The position numbers were made by a program, and so were the translations under genes. A stretch of 64,000 bases of DNA, from the NCBI GenBank assembly GCA_016191165.1, contig JACPPF010000076.1, positions 1 to 64,000 on the forward strand, read 5' to 3'. Every line of letters starts with the position of its first letter. The first letter of the stretch is position 1. The stretch is from Planctomycetota bacterium (GTDB taxonomy: Bacteria; Planctomycetota; Planctomycetia; Gemmatales; Gemmataceae). Of this stretch, positions 17,422 to 25,600 are shown in pieces. Under the pieces are notes generated by a model. That model had not been told where the DNA came from. It ran no database searches and saw nothing but the letters and a program-made list of their open reading frames with translations.

Positions 17422-18642
17422 TCACGCTGCCTTCGCGACAGGCGCGCTGGTGTCCGGCTTGGTGAACGTTACGGGCGTCTCCGCGCGGAATAGCGCGACG
17501 TCGATCCAGCGAGAAATCACAATCGCCGGACGATCCACCCAGCGACAAAAAAGCTCCGCCAGAACCAGCGTCGCCGCCAGGCTCGTCACCGATGCCGTGA
17601 ACGCTCCGGCGCCGTAGGACCAACCCCACTCTCGGCACAACAGCAGGAACAGGCCACAGCCCAGCGAGCAAAAAATGGGCATGTGAATGAGATAGATCGC
17701 AAACGACACTCGGCCCAGCCACGAAAGCCAGCGAGCGCTCAACAACTCCTGCAGCCGCGTTGACAGCGCCACCGTGGCAACCACGAGGAATGCGGAGATC
17801 GGCTTCCAGGGAATCACGAAAATGCCGATGGCAAGAATCGCCAGAGCCGGGAGCAGAGAAAGTTGTACGCGCCAGGCGCGCTGATTGATTGTCCACCAAT
17901 CGCACAGCGCCATGCCCGCGATGAAATCCGTAAGGTGGATATGCCCCAGGGCGATCAGCAAGCCGGTTCCAAGACCGTAGAGCAACCAGCGATTGCGCGC
18001 CTGGCCAAAAATTCCCACGAAGGCGTAGATGAGGAAGGACCCGGCGAGTTCGATGGGCATCGTCCACAGGACCAGGTTATAACGGGCGGTGGCGAAGAAC
18101 GCGCCGCCGAAGCCCTCACGAACCGCGTCAAAAGGGCTTGGTGAGAAATTGTAGAAACCTCGCAACCAGTTGTTCGAGGCGTCGGTGGTGGCGCCCGGAG
18201 CGGGCGTGAGCCCCTGGATTTCGTCCAGGTGGCGCACCGTCTGTTGAACGAACATCAGGCCGGATTGCATCAAGATTAAAGCAAGAAAAATCGACGCGCC
18301 TGCTGGAATAAGGAGCCGTGGGAAGCGGCGAATGGCGGCCGAGCAAACCCCGGCGGACGAACCGCTACGATAAAAGCCCAGAGACAGGACGAACCCGCTC
18401 AGGACGAAGAATATCTCGACGGGAAGCTCGCCATTCCAGAGGAATTTGCCCGGAAACCGCGCCAGGACTTGGAGCCACGCGGGAATGTCAAGCCAGCGGG
18501 CGCCGTTGCGAAAATAAAGCGCGGGCGCGAAGCCGAGGATCAGGTGCCCGACGACGACCGCCAGGGCCGCCAGGCCGCGGATTGCCTCGTAGCATTCTAT
18601 CTTCCCCCGCAATGCGCCTGCCGTGGCGTCCGGTTTCGACAT
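17422..18642 (-). CDS. Acyltransferase 3 family membrane protein
   Basis: A 406-residue polytopic protein with about ten hydrophobic segments. The N-terminus has the family signature CYEAIRGLAALAVVVGHL with the catalytic-type His, followed by PVEIFFVLSGFVLSLGF with the second conserved block. Such proteins O-acylate sugars, lipids or polysaccharides at the inner membrane; the substrate is unknown. It is convergent with accC, with only 18 bases between the stops. Confidence 0.85.
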   Translation of the reverse strand: MSKPDATAGALRGKIECYEAIRGLAALAVVVGHLILGFAPALYFRNGARWLDIPAWLQVLARFPGKFLWNGELPVEIFFVLSGFVLSLGFYRSGSSAGVCSAAIRRFPRLLIPAGASIFLALILMQSGLMFVQQTVRHLDEIQGLTPAPGATTDASNNWLRGFYNFSPSPFDAVREGFGGAFFATARYNLVLWTMPIELAGSFLIYAFVGIFGQARNRWLLYGLGTGLLIALGHIHLTDFIAGMALCDWWTINQRAWRVQLSLLPALAILAIGIFVIPWKPISAFLVVATVALSTRLQELLSARWLSWLGRVSFAIYLIHMPIFCSLGCGLFLLLCREWGWSYGAGAFTASVTSLAATLVLAELFCRWVDRPAIVISRWIDVALFRAETPVTFTKPDTSAPVAKAA

Positions 18643-18866
18643 TTGGTACCCCTGGCGTCAAGTTTTTCAAGCAGATGGCGGAATGAATAGCCTGCTCGGT
18701 CTGGGGTGTCAATGGCAGGTGGATCGCGTTTCGCCAGGCCTGGGCACGCGCGAGCGACGGACCGGGATTGCCAGGGCCTGTGGTGTCGGTGCGCGAAACG
18801 CGGGGCGGCCGCGGGTAAGGCGCCTTCCAAAAAATAACGGGTCCCCCTGGGATCACGGCCACTTTG

Positions 18867-19130
18867 CGAGTCACGAAAGCACGAAAGTGCGAAAACAGGT
18901 AAGGAATTCAAACGAATTAGTTTCCTCTCAGCCTTCTTTCGAGATTTCGGCCTGGTTCAAATCGATCGAATTTAGGGTAACAAACACTCCGCGAGCCGCC
19001 GGGCGTGTCCCGGCGGTGAACCAAGGCGGATTGTGATGAACCGCCGGGACAAGCCCGGCGGCTCGCTGTCACTTTCACTTGAACCAGGCCGAGATTTTGT
19101 GATTTCGGACTTTCGTCCTTTCGTGATTCG
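18867..19130. repeat. Triple-nested palindromic element
   Basis: Three inverted repeats are concentric. Outer arms at 18867-18896 (CGAGTCACGAAAGCACGAAA...) and 19101-19130, with a few mismatches. Middle arms at 18947-18960 (TCGGCCTGGTTCAA) and 19079-19092, perfect. Inner arms at 18991-19017 and 19040-19066, 26 of 27 matching, holding the CCGCCGGGC core. It lies in the 791-base gap between the acyltransferase and the first protease gene. No gene is supported there. Confidence 0.85.
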
Positions 19131-19185
19131 TATTTGGTAAAGCCGGCTTGAACGGATGAGGGTGGACCAGGTAATTTCTTAACGC

Positions 19186-19426
19186 ACCCAACGCGGCCGA
19201 GTCGCAACCGGGAAACCGAGTGGACAGAACTTGGGTTCTCGCAAAGGCGCCAAGGACGCAAAGGAATTCAAAGAGATGGAATCACCCGCAATTGTCCCCT
19301 CTCAGTTTGTGCTCCTCACCTTGCGTTCTCTTGTCTTTCTTTGCGTCTTTGCGAGACACAAAGGCCCCAGGGTCGGCTGCCCCAAAAGTTCTTCGCGCGG
19401 TGCGCAGAAGTTGAGATGTTAGAATC
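19186..19426. repeat. Duplicated 3' flank with palindromic repeat, copy 1
   Basis: About 240 bases just after the stop of the first protease gene match 22370-22616 after the second one. Both start with ACCCAACGCGGCCGAG, continue into an inverted repeat (core 19237-19356, TTCTCGCAAAGGCGCC with TTTGCGTCTTTGCGAGA) and end with GGTCGGCTGCCCC... and GCGCAGAAGTTGAG. Confidence 0.85.
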
Positions 19427-19433
19427 TAGGTGA

Positions 19434-22127
19434 TTACTTCTGTTTTGGGAAGATGCCGCCTTTAAGGCCCGGCATGGCGCCTACCGCGTGAACGGTCAAC
19501 TGGAATGGGCCAAACGAATTGGACGAATAGCTCGTCGCGAGAATGGTGTAGACGCCGGTGACGCGGATCGGATAGCGAATCTGCGCGTGGGGGAAGCCGC
19601 CGCCGTCGTCGTCCTGGGCGATAATCTGTCCGTTGGGCGCCAGCAAATAAAGGTAGGAGTCAAAGGCGCCGCTTCGCATGTTGATCGCGTACAGACCGCC
19701 GGCCGTGAGCTTGACGGTGTAGGCTTTCATGCGCCGGCCGGGCCGGAACCGGTTGAACGGATCGAGCGGCGTCAAGGCGCTCACTTGATTCAGCAGCACG
19801 CCGCCCTTGACCACCACGTCGGTTTCGTCCTTGGTCTTGGGCAGGGCTGGCAGCTGGACATTCATGGAATTGCCCGACTGGCGGTCGACGTCGATGTCGA
19901 TGTTGACGCCATAGCTGGCCGGCGCGTCGCCTTCGCGGTCGTTTAAGTCCGCGCGAATATTGAGTTTCGTTTCGGCAATAAATCCCGCATTGAGGTCGAA
20001 GCCGATTTTGCCGGTGATCTCCCCGCCGATCTTCTTGACGCTGCCTTCGCGTGCCGTGACTTTGCCGGTGACCGTGATGAGGGCTTCGCTGCGCTGATTG
20101 CGCAGCCGAATTCCCTCGAATTTGCAGACCAGATCGAGGTCGACGGCCTCGGTGTTTTTCCCGGTGCGAAGAATTAACGGGATCTGTGCGGTCCAGGTCT
20201 CGAGGGGCTTCACAATTTGGTTCGGCAGCGGAATAATCACGGCTTCGAGCGCGTTGCACAGGTGGGAATACTTTTCCTTGACTTCCTCGCGAAGTTCCAT
20301 GGACAACTTGGCGTTGAGGCTGCCGTCGGTGCGTGCGGTCCGTTTGTTGGCGGCATCCACGGTGAAAGTTGGCGCCATCTTGCGCAAGGTGAGCCCGACT
20401 TCCCGATTGACGCGCGTGGCCTTGCCGTTCTCGTTGCCGATGATGTCCAGCGAGGCGAAACCGGTCCGGATTTTGGCGCCCTCTTTTTCTTTTGAAAGCG
20501 ATTCGAGCATCTTGGCCTGGAGCTTTTCGCTCGAGGTCTTCTTTTCTTTGCCCTGGCGAAGGGTCGTGTTGACGAGGCTTTTCAGCGAAATGGTGCGCTC
20601 CAGGTTGGTCTTCAGGTTGACACTGAGATTGGCGAATTTGCGTTCCAGGAGGACAAGCGAAGTGGGCGTAGCTAAAGCGGGGCCCCAGTAACGGTCGCCG
20701 TTGAGGTTCGTCAACACGGGTTGCAGCCAGTAGACCTGACCGACCCCCAGCGTGGGCAGGGGCACGTCTGCGGTGCCGACGCCATTCTGGTAGGTCACGG
20801 CATGACTTTGCCGCGGGCTGTCGCCGAGCAGGGCCTGCGGCTCTTTCAGAGAATCCGGGCGTGACTTGCCGGGTGCGCCGGCCCAGACTTCCACTTTCAT
20901 TTCCCGAATGCGATTGAGCGGATCGAAACAGACATACCGCACGGGCATGCGCGCCACGCCAAACTGCGTGAAGCCCTCGCCAAACTTGGCGTCGGCGAAC
21001 CGGCCTTCGATGACGTGGCGAACTTTTTCGGCTGGCACCGCGAAAGGCTTCACGGCGGCGTCGTCGGCGCCGCGCATGCAAACGCCAACAAGTCGGCCGG
21101 CGGTGTTGACGATAGGGCCGCCCGAGTTGCCCAGGTGCATGCCTTCGCTGACCTGGATCCGATCGAGGACGCCGTTGGTGTTGTCGCGCAGGCTGGACAC
21201 GGTCGTCGGATTCGCGGTGATGGACTTGCCGGGCTGAGTCGGTTCCGGGGGGCCGAATACGTACACCTTCTGATCCTGGAAAGTTTTCGCGTCGATCTCC
21301 ATTTCAAGCGGCGGCGGCGGGGCTGCCAGTTTCACGCGAACGACTCCAAGGTCGCTGGCGCGGTCCACGCCAAGGACCTGCCCGAGAGTCTTCAACTCGC
21401 CAGCCTCGCCGCTGCGGACGACCACCTCGACCGATTCCGGCGGAGGGTTCGAAGGTGACGACATCCCCAGCACATGGGCGTTCGTGATAACTATGCCGCG
21501 TTCAAGGGCGAAGAACCCGCTCCCCTCGGAAATCTCGCCGGTGGGCAGCGTGACCTTCAAATACACCGTAGTTTGCTTGACGCGGGCGGTGATTTCCGGC
21601 GTGATCTCTTTGGGCAAATCCTTGACCACGGGTTTCGGTTCGGGTTCCGTCTTCTTCTTTTTCTGGTCGCGGGGCGGATCCGGCTTCCGATCGATGTTTG
21701 GCTTGGGGATGGGTTTGACCGGAATCTTGATCGCTTTGTCAGCATCCTTTTTTTTGCCGAGGTCATTAAAGACGAATGGGTCCGGTTTCTCGTCGGTAGT
21801 CGGGGCCGAGGATTGCTTGACAAGAATGGCGATCAGGGCAACCAGGCCGACGCCAAAGAGTACAAACATCGCCACGAGACCGCCGACGATCAGGACCGCG
21901 GAGCCACCGGACCGCGCGTTGGAATCGTCGGAGCGAAGCGCCGGTCGTTCGCCCGATTCGCCGGTTCCGGTCTTGACGCGGGGCTTCGGCGCCGTCGGAA
22001 TGGTCCCGTCCTCGCCTGGTACGGCGACCGGCTTTTTGCATTCGCGGCAGTAGACCTTCTTGCCGCGCTTGCTGTCATCGACCGAGTAGGAAGCGTTGCA
22101 CGCCAGACAGGTGATTGGAACAGCCAT
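19434..22127 (-). CDS. Membrane-anchored S1C (trypsin-like) serine protease with N-terminal zinc ribbon and PPC-like C-domain
   Basis: 897 residues. Residues 6-37 form a zinc ribbon with four cysteines (CLACNASYSVDDSKRGKK, then CREC). One membrane helix lies at about 75-103, then a Lys/Pro-rich linker to about 180. The protease domain (about 180-385) has His in VITNAHVLG, Asp in RASDLGVVRV and Ser in HLGNSGGPIVN, so the triad is intact. The long middle part is beta-rich and unrecognised. The C-terminus has a PPC-like fold, YAINMRSGAFDSYLYLLAPNG. A cytosolic ribbon and an external protease are implied by topology. Paralogue of the next gene upstream. Confidence 0.87.
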   Translation of the reverse strand: MAVPITCLACNASYSVDDSKRGKKVYCRECKKPVAVPGEDGTIPTAPKPRVKTGTGESGERPALRSDDSNARSGGSAVLIVGGLVAMFVLFGVGLVALIAILVKQSSAPTTDEKPDPFVFNDLGKKKDADKAIKIPVKPIPKPNIDRKPDPPRDQKKKKTEPEPKPVVKDLPKEITPEITARVKQTTVYLKVTLPTGEISEGSGFFALERGIVITNAHVLGMSSPSNPPPESVEVVVRSGEAGELKTLGQVLGVDRASDLGVVRVKLAAPPPPLEMEIDAKTFQDQKVYVFGPPEPTQPGKSITANPTTVSSLRDNTNGVLDRIQVSEGMHLGNSGGPIVNTAGRLVGVCMRGADDAAVKPFAVPAEKVRHVIEGRFADAKFGEGFTQFGVARMPVRYVCFDPLNRIREMKVEVWAGAPGKSRPDSLKEPQALLGDSPRQSHAVTYQNGVGTADVPLPTLGVGQVYWLQPVLTNLNGDRYWGPALATPTSLVLLERKFANLSVNLKTNLERTISLKSLVNTTLRQGKEKKTSSEKLQAKMLESLSKEKEGAKIRTGFASLDIIGNENGKATRVNREVGLTLRKMAPTFTVDAANKRTARTDGSLNAKLSMELREEVKEKYSHLCNALEAVIIPLPNQIVKPLETWTAQIPLILRTGKNTEAVDLDLVCKFEGIRLRNQRSEALITVTGKVTAREGSVKKIGGEITGKIGFDLNAGFIAETKLNIRADLNDREGDAPASYGVNIDIDVDRQSGNSMNVQLPALPKTKDETDVVVKGGVLLNQVSALTPLDPFNRFRPGRRMKAYTVKLTAGGLYAINMRSGAFDSYLYLLAPNGQIIAQDDDGGGFPHAQIRYPIRVTGVYTILATSYSSNSFGPFQLTVHAVGAMPGLKGGIFPKQK

Positions 22128-22369
22128 GGTGATTTCTCTTCAGGGTCAGAACCCCATCGGCAGGAACGACGCACCCGAAGGTTCGTTTTCTTGACGCCTG
22201 GGAACGTCTGATCGGCCACGGGTCGTTGGGGGCAAAGGAAGAAAAGACCCAAAGGGAGATTTTAAGCTGCTGACAATCAGGTTGCAATGCTATTTCCCCT
22301 TTCAACGTCGGGGCCAGCGGCGGCGAAAGGGCAACCGGCAAGTCGGTTGGGCGTTTCGCCTTCAACCGA
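22128..22369. other. Gap between the protease paralogues, upstream part
   Basis: No gene is supported. This is the 5' region of the first protease gene (minus strand). A hairpin at about 22322-22359 pairs GGCGAAA with TTTCGCC and CAACCG with CGGTTG around a six-base loop. No match to the 5' flank of the second protease gene was seen, so the duplicated block ends near the gene starts. Confidence 0.5.
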
Positions 22370-22616
22370 TTCACCCAACGCGGCCGAGGCGCAACCGGGA
22401 AGCCGAGTGCATAGAACTCGGGTTCTCGCAAAGGCGCCAAGGACGCAAAGGAATTTAAAGATAGGAAAACACCCGTTATTGTCCCCTCTCAGTTTGTGCT
22501 TCTCGTCTTTCGTTTTCTTGTCTTTCTTTGCGTCCTTTGCGTCTTTGCGAGACACAAGGGCCCGATGTCGGCTGCCCCAATAGGTCTTCGCGTGGTGCGC
22601 AGAAGTTGAGCGGTGA
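22370..22616. repeat. Duplicated 3' flank with palindromic repeat, copy 2
   Basis: Counterpart of 19186-19426 after the second protease gene. The inverted-repeat core is at 22424-22552. Its right arm has one extra copy of the 9-base word (TTTGCGTCCTTTGCGTCTTTGCGAGA against TTTGCGTCTTTGCGAGA in copy 1), showing that the arms grow or shrink by whole words. Confidence 0.85.
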
Positions 22617-22620
22617 GAAT

Positions 22621-25600
22621 CTACTCGAGGGTCGAATTAACGCGTACTCTTCCGCGCAAGGGCGGACCTCTTTCTTCGCTGCGCTGCACAAAGTCGATCG
22701 CCAGGCGCGTCACCTGATCGCCATTGAATTCGAGTTCCCACACGACGAATTCTCCGGCAACGCGATTGCTGCCGCGCCCCTTGCCGAAAAAATCAAGGCC
22801 GGGCGAAGCGCCGCTGAAGGCAAAGCGTTTTGCGTCCTGGTATTCGCCGATCTGGAGGAACTGTCCATTGGGGGCGCCGATGGCGAGGTTCCAGCCGTCC
22901 ACGCTGACGTTGACGCCGCGCGGGGTTTTTTGAACTTTCAGTTCATCGCCGCGATATTGGTAGTTTCGCCCCTGTCCGATGTAATCGCCCTTTGGACTGT
23001 CGATGGACATGTAGGAGGTAGGCTGCGCGGCCTTGCCGGGTCGAGTGAATCCTTTTGCCTGGGGCAAGGGCGCAGGTCCTGGTCCGGGGCCTTGATTGGC
23101 GCCGATTTTCTTGGCGGGGCCGGTTCCCACTTCATGGACGCTGAGCTGAAACGGCCCGAATTTGCCGTCGAAGCTCGAGACGATGACTCGATGGAGTCCC
23201 GTGGCGGTAGCGCGATGCACGATGCGGGCGTGGGGGAAGCCGCCGCCGTCGTCATCGCGGGCCAGCAACTGGCCGGTGGGCGAAACCAGGAACAGGTAGG
23301 AGTCAAACGCGTTGCTGGTCAGGTCGATGACATAGGTCTTGCCGCCTTGCAACAACACGGGGTAGATCTTCATCCGCGAGCCCCGCTGGCGCAACTGCTG
23401 GTCGTTCACCGGCGGATCGGTGGGCCGCAAAAAGTTGGCCTGACCGAAAATCAGTTTTCCCTTGGCGATTGGCTGGGAGCCTTTGCCATAGGGGTCGGCA
23501 TTCGGGGGGAGTTGGATGTTCATCGGATTGCCCGCCTGGCGTTCGAGATCGATATCGAACGCGACCACGGCCTGGACGGCGCCTCCCAGCAAGTCGAGTT
23601 CACTCTGGATGGTGAGCTTGGCCTCAGAGATAAATCCGGCCGCCAGGTCGAACGCGATCTTGCCGAATACGTCGCCGCCGACTTTTTTGGCGTTGGCGTC
23701 GCGCCCTTTGACTCGACCCGTGACCGTGATGACGGCCTCCTGGCGTTGTTTGCGTTGACGGACGCCCTCGAATTTGCAGACAAGGTCGAGATCGACCACT
23801 TCGGCTTTCTTGGCGGTCCGGACCAGCATCGGAATTTGCGTCGGCCAGCGCTCATTGGGTTGCACGAGCCGGTTGGGCATCGGCATGTTGACGGCTTCGA
23901 GGGCGTTACACATCTGGCTGTATTTGTCCTTGATGTCCTCGCGTAGATCGAAGGGCAGGGCCGGGTTCAAGTTGGTGTCAGCCCGCTCGCGGAGTTTGTT
24001 CGTTCCGTCCACGACGAAGACCGGTGGAATTACCCGCAGGCGCGCGGTGACCTCAGGGTCCACGCGCAGTGGCCGACCGTCCTCCTCGGCCGAAAGGTTG
24101 AGATTGCCGACACCGGTCACCATCCGGGCGCCGCGCGCATGAGGATAAAGATCCTCAAGCATCGTTGCCTGGAGCTTTTCGCCGAAGACGCCTTTTTGTT
24201 TGCCCTTGTAAATCGTGAAGGTGGACGCATTTTTCACGGTGATGGTGCGCTTCTTGTGTGTTTCGAGGCTGACCTGGAGATTGGCGGCCTTGCGTTCGAG
24301 CAGGATGAGCGACGTGGGCGTTGCCAGGGCGGTGCCCCAGTGGCTGACGTTCTGGCCGGTGATGACCGGTTGAAACCAGTAGACCTGGCCTGGCCCCAGC
24401 GCGGGCAGCGGGACGTCGAGCAGGCCGACGCCGTTCTGATAGTTCACCTTGTGGGTCTGGCGTGGACCATCCCCGGGCATCGTCGCCGGTTTTTGCAGAG
24501 AATAGGGACGCGTGGTTCCGGGTTGGCCGGCCCAGACCTCCACCTTCATTTCGCGAATGCGATTGAGCGGGTCGAGGCAGGTATAACGCACGGGCATGCG
24601 CGCCTCCGCCCCCTGCGTGTAGGCTTCGCCAAGCTTGCTGTCGGCCAGTCGGCCTTCCATCACGAGCCGCACCTTTTCGGCCGGGATGGCGAAGTTGATC
24701 TGCGTGCCCTTGATGCCGGCGACGGAAACGCCGACGAGCTTTCCGGCCGCGTTGACAACGGGGCCCCCGGAGTTGCCCGGATGCATGCCGCCGTTGACCT
24801 GAATTCGTTCGAGCGCGCCCGTTCCATCGTTGCGTAGGCTGGATACATTCGACGGGCTTACCGTGATGTTCTTGCCAAGTTCCGCGCCGAATGGGAATCC
24901 GAAAATGAAGACCTTCTGCGTCTCGAACAGCTTGGCATTCATTTCAAGTTCAAGCGGCGCGGGCATGGCCGCCAGATTGACGCGCAGGACGCCCAGGTCG
25001 CTGGCGCGATCCACGCCGAGAACCTGGCCGACGGTCTTCAATTCGTTCGCTTCGCCGCTGTTGACGACCACCTCGACCGTCTCTGGCGGGCGGCTTGACG
25101 CGGACAGCATTCCCAACACGTGAGCGTTCGTCACGACAATTCCGCGCTCCAGGGCGAAGAAACCGCTGCCCTCCGAGACCTGGCCGCTCGGCAAGGTGAC
25201 CCGCAAGTACACCGTCGCTTGCTTCACGCGCCCCACCACTTCGGGCGCAACATCGTTTGGCAGTCCTTTGCCTGGATCGGGATCGGGCTTCGGCTTCTGG
25301 ATGGGATCGGGATCCGGGCCGGGGTCGTTCGGGATCTGGATTTTCTTGCCATCTCTCTTGGCCGCCAGGTCAGGCGGCGCATCCGCAGGCTTCGCTTTTA
25401 ACCAAAACACCAGCCCCAGGCCTGCCGCCCCGACGACCAGGACCAGAAACACGGCCGCAATTCCACCGACGACCAACAAGACAGGAAAGCCCGCCTTGGC
25501 TTCAGGTTTTTTCTTTCGCACCGGCGCCCGATCCTCGCTGTCCTCTTCATCGCGCTTGCGTGGCGTCGCCTTGATCTTGGGCCTGGCCTGGACCCCTTCT

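Follow-up and report, generated by a model that had tools for sequence, protein, structure and literature searches.

Three inverted repeats lie one within another, around almost the same centre, between positions 18,867 and 19,130 of the window (the whole 64,000-nt stretch of Planctomycetota DNA analysed here). Does such a nest record three invasions, each into an older repeat, as an earlier note on this DNA proposed? The palindromic stretch sits in a 0.79-kb intergenic gap of the window annotation, between two genes:

17422-18642, minus strand: acyltransferase gene (Pfam Acyl_transf_3), its start facing the gap
19434-22127, minus strand: trypsin-like peptidase gene (Pfam Trypsin_2), its end facing the gap

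and comprises the following arms:

18867-18897 and 19100-19130: outer inverted repeat, 27/31 pairs
18944-18960 and 19079-19095: middle inverted repeat, 94% of 17 pairs, with 12 perfect pairs within the MITE described below
18991-19017 and 19040-19066: inner inverted repeat, 26/27 pairs

The three repeats exist and lie well outside what chance would give: the best ungapped inverted repeat in window 18800-19200 scores 23, whereas in 200 shuffles of that interval, which approximately preserve its dinucleotides, the best score averages 7.8 and never exceeds 13. A common centre, as first described, holds only approximately, with the outer, middle and inner repeats centred at 18998.5, 19019.5 and 19028.5, i.e. 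9-30 bp apart. The arm positions were found again, but the extent given to the outer repeat was too short, since its homology to other copies runs from ~18818 to 19189, beyond the outer arms. An Rfam search of window 18000-23000 gave no matches.

The middle and inner layers belong to one element. When 18850-19140 was used as a BLAST query, the part at ~18944-19092 recurred; there were 158 first-look candidates, of which 40 were scored, and most span both ends of the unit. Own-genome searches covered the source genome assembly (7.23 Mb in 183 contigs), where the terminal sequence GGCCTGGTTCAA, with at most one mismatch allowed, occurs 280 times and a control pattern 34 times. Copies were picked for having both terminal repeats and, close to one of them, a box resembling GGGTAACA. 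The inner arms are present in 43/43 distinct complete copies, a count that, given this selection, is valid for the 142-bp type only. The copy consensus is 142 bp long and highly conserved throughout, and the DNA fold of the unit has an energy of -50 kcal/mol (z = -8.1). Its features in the window are:

18941-18948, unstranded: left target-duplication copy GAGATTTC
18949-19090, plus strand: 142-bp MITE (middle and inner layers), inserted in the outer repeat, with 43 distinct complete copies in the genome
18949-18960, plus strand: left terminal inverted repeat GGCCTGGTTCAA (middle left arm), from inverted-repeat scan and copy consensus
18975-18982, plus strand: inner box GGGTAACA, starting at base 27 counted from the left end, which has the long spacer
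18991-19017, plus strand: inner palindrome, left arm, present in all 43 copies
19040-19066, plus strand: inner palindrome, right arm, present in all 43 copies
19067-19074, minus strand: degenerate inner box AAGTGACA (family consensus AGGTCACA), starting at base 17 counted from the right end, which has the short spacer
19079-19090, plus strand: right terminal inverted repeat TTGAACCAGGCC (middle right arm)
19091-19098, unstranded: right target-duplication copy GAGATTTT, 7/8 identical to the left

A second type in the same genome, of ~235 bp, has the same terminal repeat around a different inner palindrome. When the inner palindrome alone was the query, every place inspected lay near one or more ends resembling GGCCTGGTTCAA. 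At one locus (L090 1390-1774, C165) an element of 142 bp adjoins one of 235 bp, with the target octamer GACTATTC in three copies; from this sequence it looks as if the second element had been inserted at the duplication of the first.

The flanks of the 43 copies show a duplication of constant length. Identity between the two flanks is 84% at 8 bp, 39% at 7 bp and 36% at 9 bp; flank pairs shuffled between copies gave a mean of 33% and a maximum of 44% in 5000 trials. This length profile rules out a 9-bp target duplication. All eight duplicated bases are kept in 18 copies, seven in 14, six in 4 and fewer in 7, so that 36/43 retain at least 6/8. Duplications of 8 bp point to a DDE-type transposase. 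Judged on its sequence, the element has each of the structural features of a MITE that were tested: its ends are fixed and formed by terminal inverted repeats, its duplication is a constant 8 bp, and its many dispersed copies are, at 142 bp, too short for a transposase gene.

The same flanks bear on another reading, in which the elements are of REP/REPIN type and owe their movement to a Y1 transposase, TnpA-REP, which the earlier note named as an example of an enzyme to look for. Its palindromes do occur in many copies, and a Y1_Tnp (IS200-like) gene lies ~0.7 kb from the related element L274 (75-1118 and 1835-2022, genome G394), probably by chance. Y1 enzymes are not expected to leave clean 8-bp duplications of the target or to act on terminal inverted repeats such as those found here. 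Nor was a GTAG or CGTC tag, as the REP tags are named in the accessible part of PMC3733652, seen by eye in the 43-copy consensus, whether at its ends or next to its inner arms. We give movement by TnpA-REP next to no chance.

The outer arms belong to something else, a palindromic repeat built on CACGAAAG units and unrelated to the MITE, which the element splits into two parts:

18818-18948, plus strand: outer repeat, left part, with the outer left arm; ends TA then AGGCGCC...AACGGGTCC; 82-86% identical to the uninterrupted L092 and L093; boundary placed by end alignment
19099-19189, plus strand: outer repeat, right part, with the outer right arm; 89-90% identical to L092 and L093, and 91% to part of L095

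A search with the rebuilt empty site found two uninterrupted copies (L092 and L093), at C123:3057-3191 and C83:17223-17358, as well as partial ones. Near the insertion site the window repeat differs from both by about one 8-bp unit, so these empty sites are homologous, not base-for-base identical. Removing the element with one duplication restores a continuous palindromic repeat (the join was made with a 9-bp duplication; the 8-bp join is nearly the same). The older outer repeat came first and the MITE second. Because the outer arms are a different repeat with two uninterrupted copies elsewhere, there was one nesting event with two layers.

The outer repeat may itself be mobile: TA precedes 6/8 of its readable copy ends, which hints at a TA-duplicating (IS630-type) MITE. 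BLAST against plasmid sequences gave no match to it, and one short weak match to the 142-bp MITE. Directly after it, at window 19186-19415, lies a palindromic repeat of CGCAAAG units, with a second copy 3.2 kb away at window 22372-22610 (86% identity over 240 bp). The centre of this repeat shares AAGGAATTCAAA...CCTCTCAG with the CACGAAAG repeat, and the arm units differ. The two repeats meet at the same point in the window (19185-19190) and in L093 (1655-1670), with the CACGAAAG repeat in opposite orientations.

What then remains of a history of three insertions, each palindrome entering the loop of the preceding one? The idea of insertion into older repeats survives in part, as a mobile repeat did enter an older palindromic repeat, leaving its 8-bp duplication, and outer repeat and MITE are separate events. 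Three successive invasions do not survive, as middle and inner together form a single element. The earlier note looked to single copies of each layer to order the insertions, and to recurrence of the nest as one block as the sign of a single event; the outer layer does occur alone, in its two uninterrupted copies, while middle and inner recur together, as one block, in 43/43 copies, and that block takes in these two layers only. For recent events the three-insertion reading is thus already refuted, and as an account of the locus we rate it extremely unlikely. The same ends surround unrelated inner palindromes in other genomes (below), so interiors were swapped at some time; because such swaps within the same ends took place over longer time, the idea of successive insertion may fit the deeper history of the MITE family.

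Near-concentricity could also arise if the MITE sought out palindromic targets, as some insertion sequences seek REPs; the available part of one publication (PMC1525189) describes insertion sequences targeting REPs, which resemble the present case in that a mobile element lies inside a palindromic repeat. By eye, two copies (L013, L018) adjoin the hairpin of another element. The rebuilt empty sites of 41 copies were compared with 568 random positions from the same loci, and their inverted-repeat scores are no different: 1/41 and 22/568, respectively, score at least 9 (p = 0.43). The sole copy among the 41 inside a long palindrome is that in the window. Unlike the published REP-targeting elements, as far as that source describes them, the present MITE shows no target preference, so its near-concentric layout is coincidence, not targeting; we hold palindrome targeting to be highly unlikely.

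We are thus highly confident that the locus arose by a single MITE insertion into an older, unrelated palindromic repeat, the near-common centre being coincidental. The unit, its copies, the target duplication and the uninterrupted copies of the host repeat are observed directly, and the order of the two layers follows from them. On this account a non-autonomous cut-and-paste MITE (142 bp, with GGCCTGGTTCAA ends and its own near-perfect inner palindrome) inserted once into the CACGAAAG repeat, a DDE-type transposase presumably acting in trans. This enzyme would recognise the terminal repeat plus the inner GGGTAACA-like box, at ends that differ by one helical turn. Three points count against the single-insertion account: the duplication is 7/8, the outer repeat differs by about one 8-bp unit from its uninterrupted copies, and the search for an autonomous transposase bounded by such ends gave none.

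That search used the profiles PF13737, PF13610, PF12762, PF01610 and PF01609, and none led to an autonomous partner with these ends. The IS6 (PF13610) and IS1595 (PF12762) profiles each matched in 0/4 genomes, ISL3 (PF01610) in 1/4, with other ends, and DDE_Tnp_1 (PF01609, for IS4/IS5) at 14 loci in 4 genomes, none bounded by GGCCTGGTTCAA ends; the PF13737 result is uninformative because that profile matched nowhere, controls included. Scanning 272 kb of G394 stretches yielded more short elements and no autonomous copy. One candidate, an insertion-sequence end at C69:1-163, was rejected: its similarity to the MITE stops after ~31 bp and the remainder recurs alone elsewhere, so we read it as another element inserted in a MITE copy. 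Searches of the open-access literature, which leaves most subscription papers outside, showed no description of such a family or its end strings; two 13-letter end strings gave no match there, and an 11-letter string appears, among the matches as listed, only with other subjects.

Outside the source genome, the same terminal repeat followed by the GGGTAACA box surrounds unrelated interiors. The exact pattern occurs in 4/392 sampled genomes of the window's phylum, namely the source genome, G081, G253 and G320, and at 12 places in a Desulfobacteraceae MAG (isolate GLD-1, G392). Relatives with the same ends were also found in Planctomycetota MAG B58T3L14 (G394) and in a Rhodopirellula sp. MAG (G395). 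A plasmid BLAST with one end showed that Acaryochloris plasmids carry such elements too, and the viral-contig scans gave a single real one, on IMG/VR contig L294. The deltaproteobacterial contig L131 has one end without a partner, as has a plasmid of Polaromonas; some of the Polaromonas query proved to be unrelated sequence common to 2985 records, and the other plasmid and phage matches were taken as chance. Scanning genome contigs for GGCCTGGTTCAAATC returned mostly chance matches, the useful ones being L131, L172, L184 and L188, with one end only in L179.

Many G392 elements have perfect 8-bp duplications and so were probably mobile recently. Duplications are poor (1-4/8) at L274, L271a, L271b and L272a (G394) and at the Acaryochloris pREC2 copy. 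We also note some of the interiors: (i) In G392 copies, including L245 and L252, the same ends enclose several hairpins, both nested and adjacent; here too, concentric palindromes move together as a unit. (ii) The interiors of L131 (3620-3902), L184 and L218 include palindromes of short iterated units, e.g. CGTAATCG, GAACGTCCAAC and GGGGACATG, which resemble repeats common in other bacteria.

The two ends of these elements are not alike. We scanned 293 loci (1.62 Mb) for pairs of terminal repeats that are separated by 70-600 bp and keep at least 6/8 duplicated bases; 63 elements were found, against none with a reversed control motif, and removal of one 385-bp composite of two adjoining elements left 62. 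The box position at each end was taken as the best GGGTAACA match between positions 13 and 50. Both ends bear a box of at least 6/8 in 34/62 elements, and in 34/34 of these the box start is at 17 from one end and at 26-28 from the other (27 in 32, 26 in one, 28 in one); spacing is equal in 0/34. The short end can thus be written as GGNNTGGTTCAA N4 GGGTAACA, and the long end has an N14 spacer instead. Bases between terminal repeat and box vary between genomes while the spacing is kept. In shuffled interiors the best match falls at 17 or at 27 in 0.4% each. These 34 elements are not independent, being related by descent and drawn, outside the source genome, from pattern-chosen loci; most of these patterns required one end to have a box, with whatever spacing the allowed gap permitted, and left the other end free. 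Without the source genome's own 142-type, the 17 plus 26-28 arrangement is present in 18/23.

Some elements depart from this arrangement. A second box of at least 6/8 at the expected place is absent in 28/62 elements, 23 of which are the source genome's 142-type, with its degenerate short-end box. The window copy's AAGTGACA matches 5/8, and in that type 16/39 copies have at least 6/8 at position 17 plus the other box at 26-27. The best box lies at 39 in one G394 element, and L294, found later and outside the 62, is ambiguous, its long end having a 7/8 box at both 17 and 27.

Perhaps these elements form a transposon clan not described before, present in several bacterial phyla and governed by a spacer rule that sets the GGGTAACA box of one end a helical turn deeper than that of the other; we offer this tentatively, as a possibility that falls somewhat short of probable. 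In such a clan, a DDE transposase would have to pair a short end with a long one to build its synaptic complex, and the interior would be free to vary, so that lineages differ in the palindromes enclosed. The 12/23 rule of RAG and Transib is a spacer rule of this kind, and to our knowledge the known cases of a one-helical-turn spacing rule between ends come mainly from eukaryotic RAG-like transposons. RSS/Transib and piggyBac ends combine a terminal repeat with an inner box and have a longer spacer at one end, as do the ends described here, whereas the present clan is bacterial, makes 8-bp duplications and has different sequences.

Bacterial MITEs, as the accessible part of one review (PMC10969869) presents them, are short and gene-less, with terminal inverted repeats, target duplications and many copies, and are mobilised in trans. 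The present element agrees in size, lack of a gene, terminal inverted repeats, target duplications and copy number; unlike bacterial MITEs in general, so far as described there, it has a fixed 10-bp shift of the inner box between its ends, and the interior palindrome is swapped among relatives. The same source describes Chunjie of Geobacter uraniireducens, a MITE of variable length (178-235 bp) and many copies; likeness in size class, variable length and copy number, compared by the review's description, suggests that Chunjie may belong to the same clan.

The locus as first described is an ordinary nested insertion, and it carries a caution: concentric palindromes in raw sequence are not necessarily stacked separate invasions. 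What matters more is the cross-phylum clan of orphan MITEs with lopsided ends. Because one set of ends persists in Planctomycetota, Desulfobacterota and Cyanobacteriota while the spacer sequences and the interiors are entirely different, a real and widespread transposition system is implied; if true, a bacterial spacer rule would be testable in vitro once the enzyme is found.
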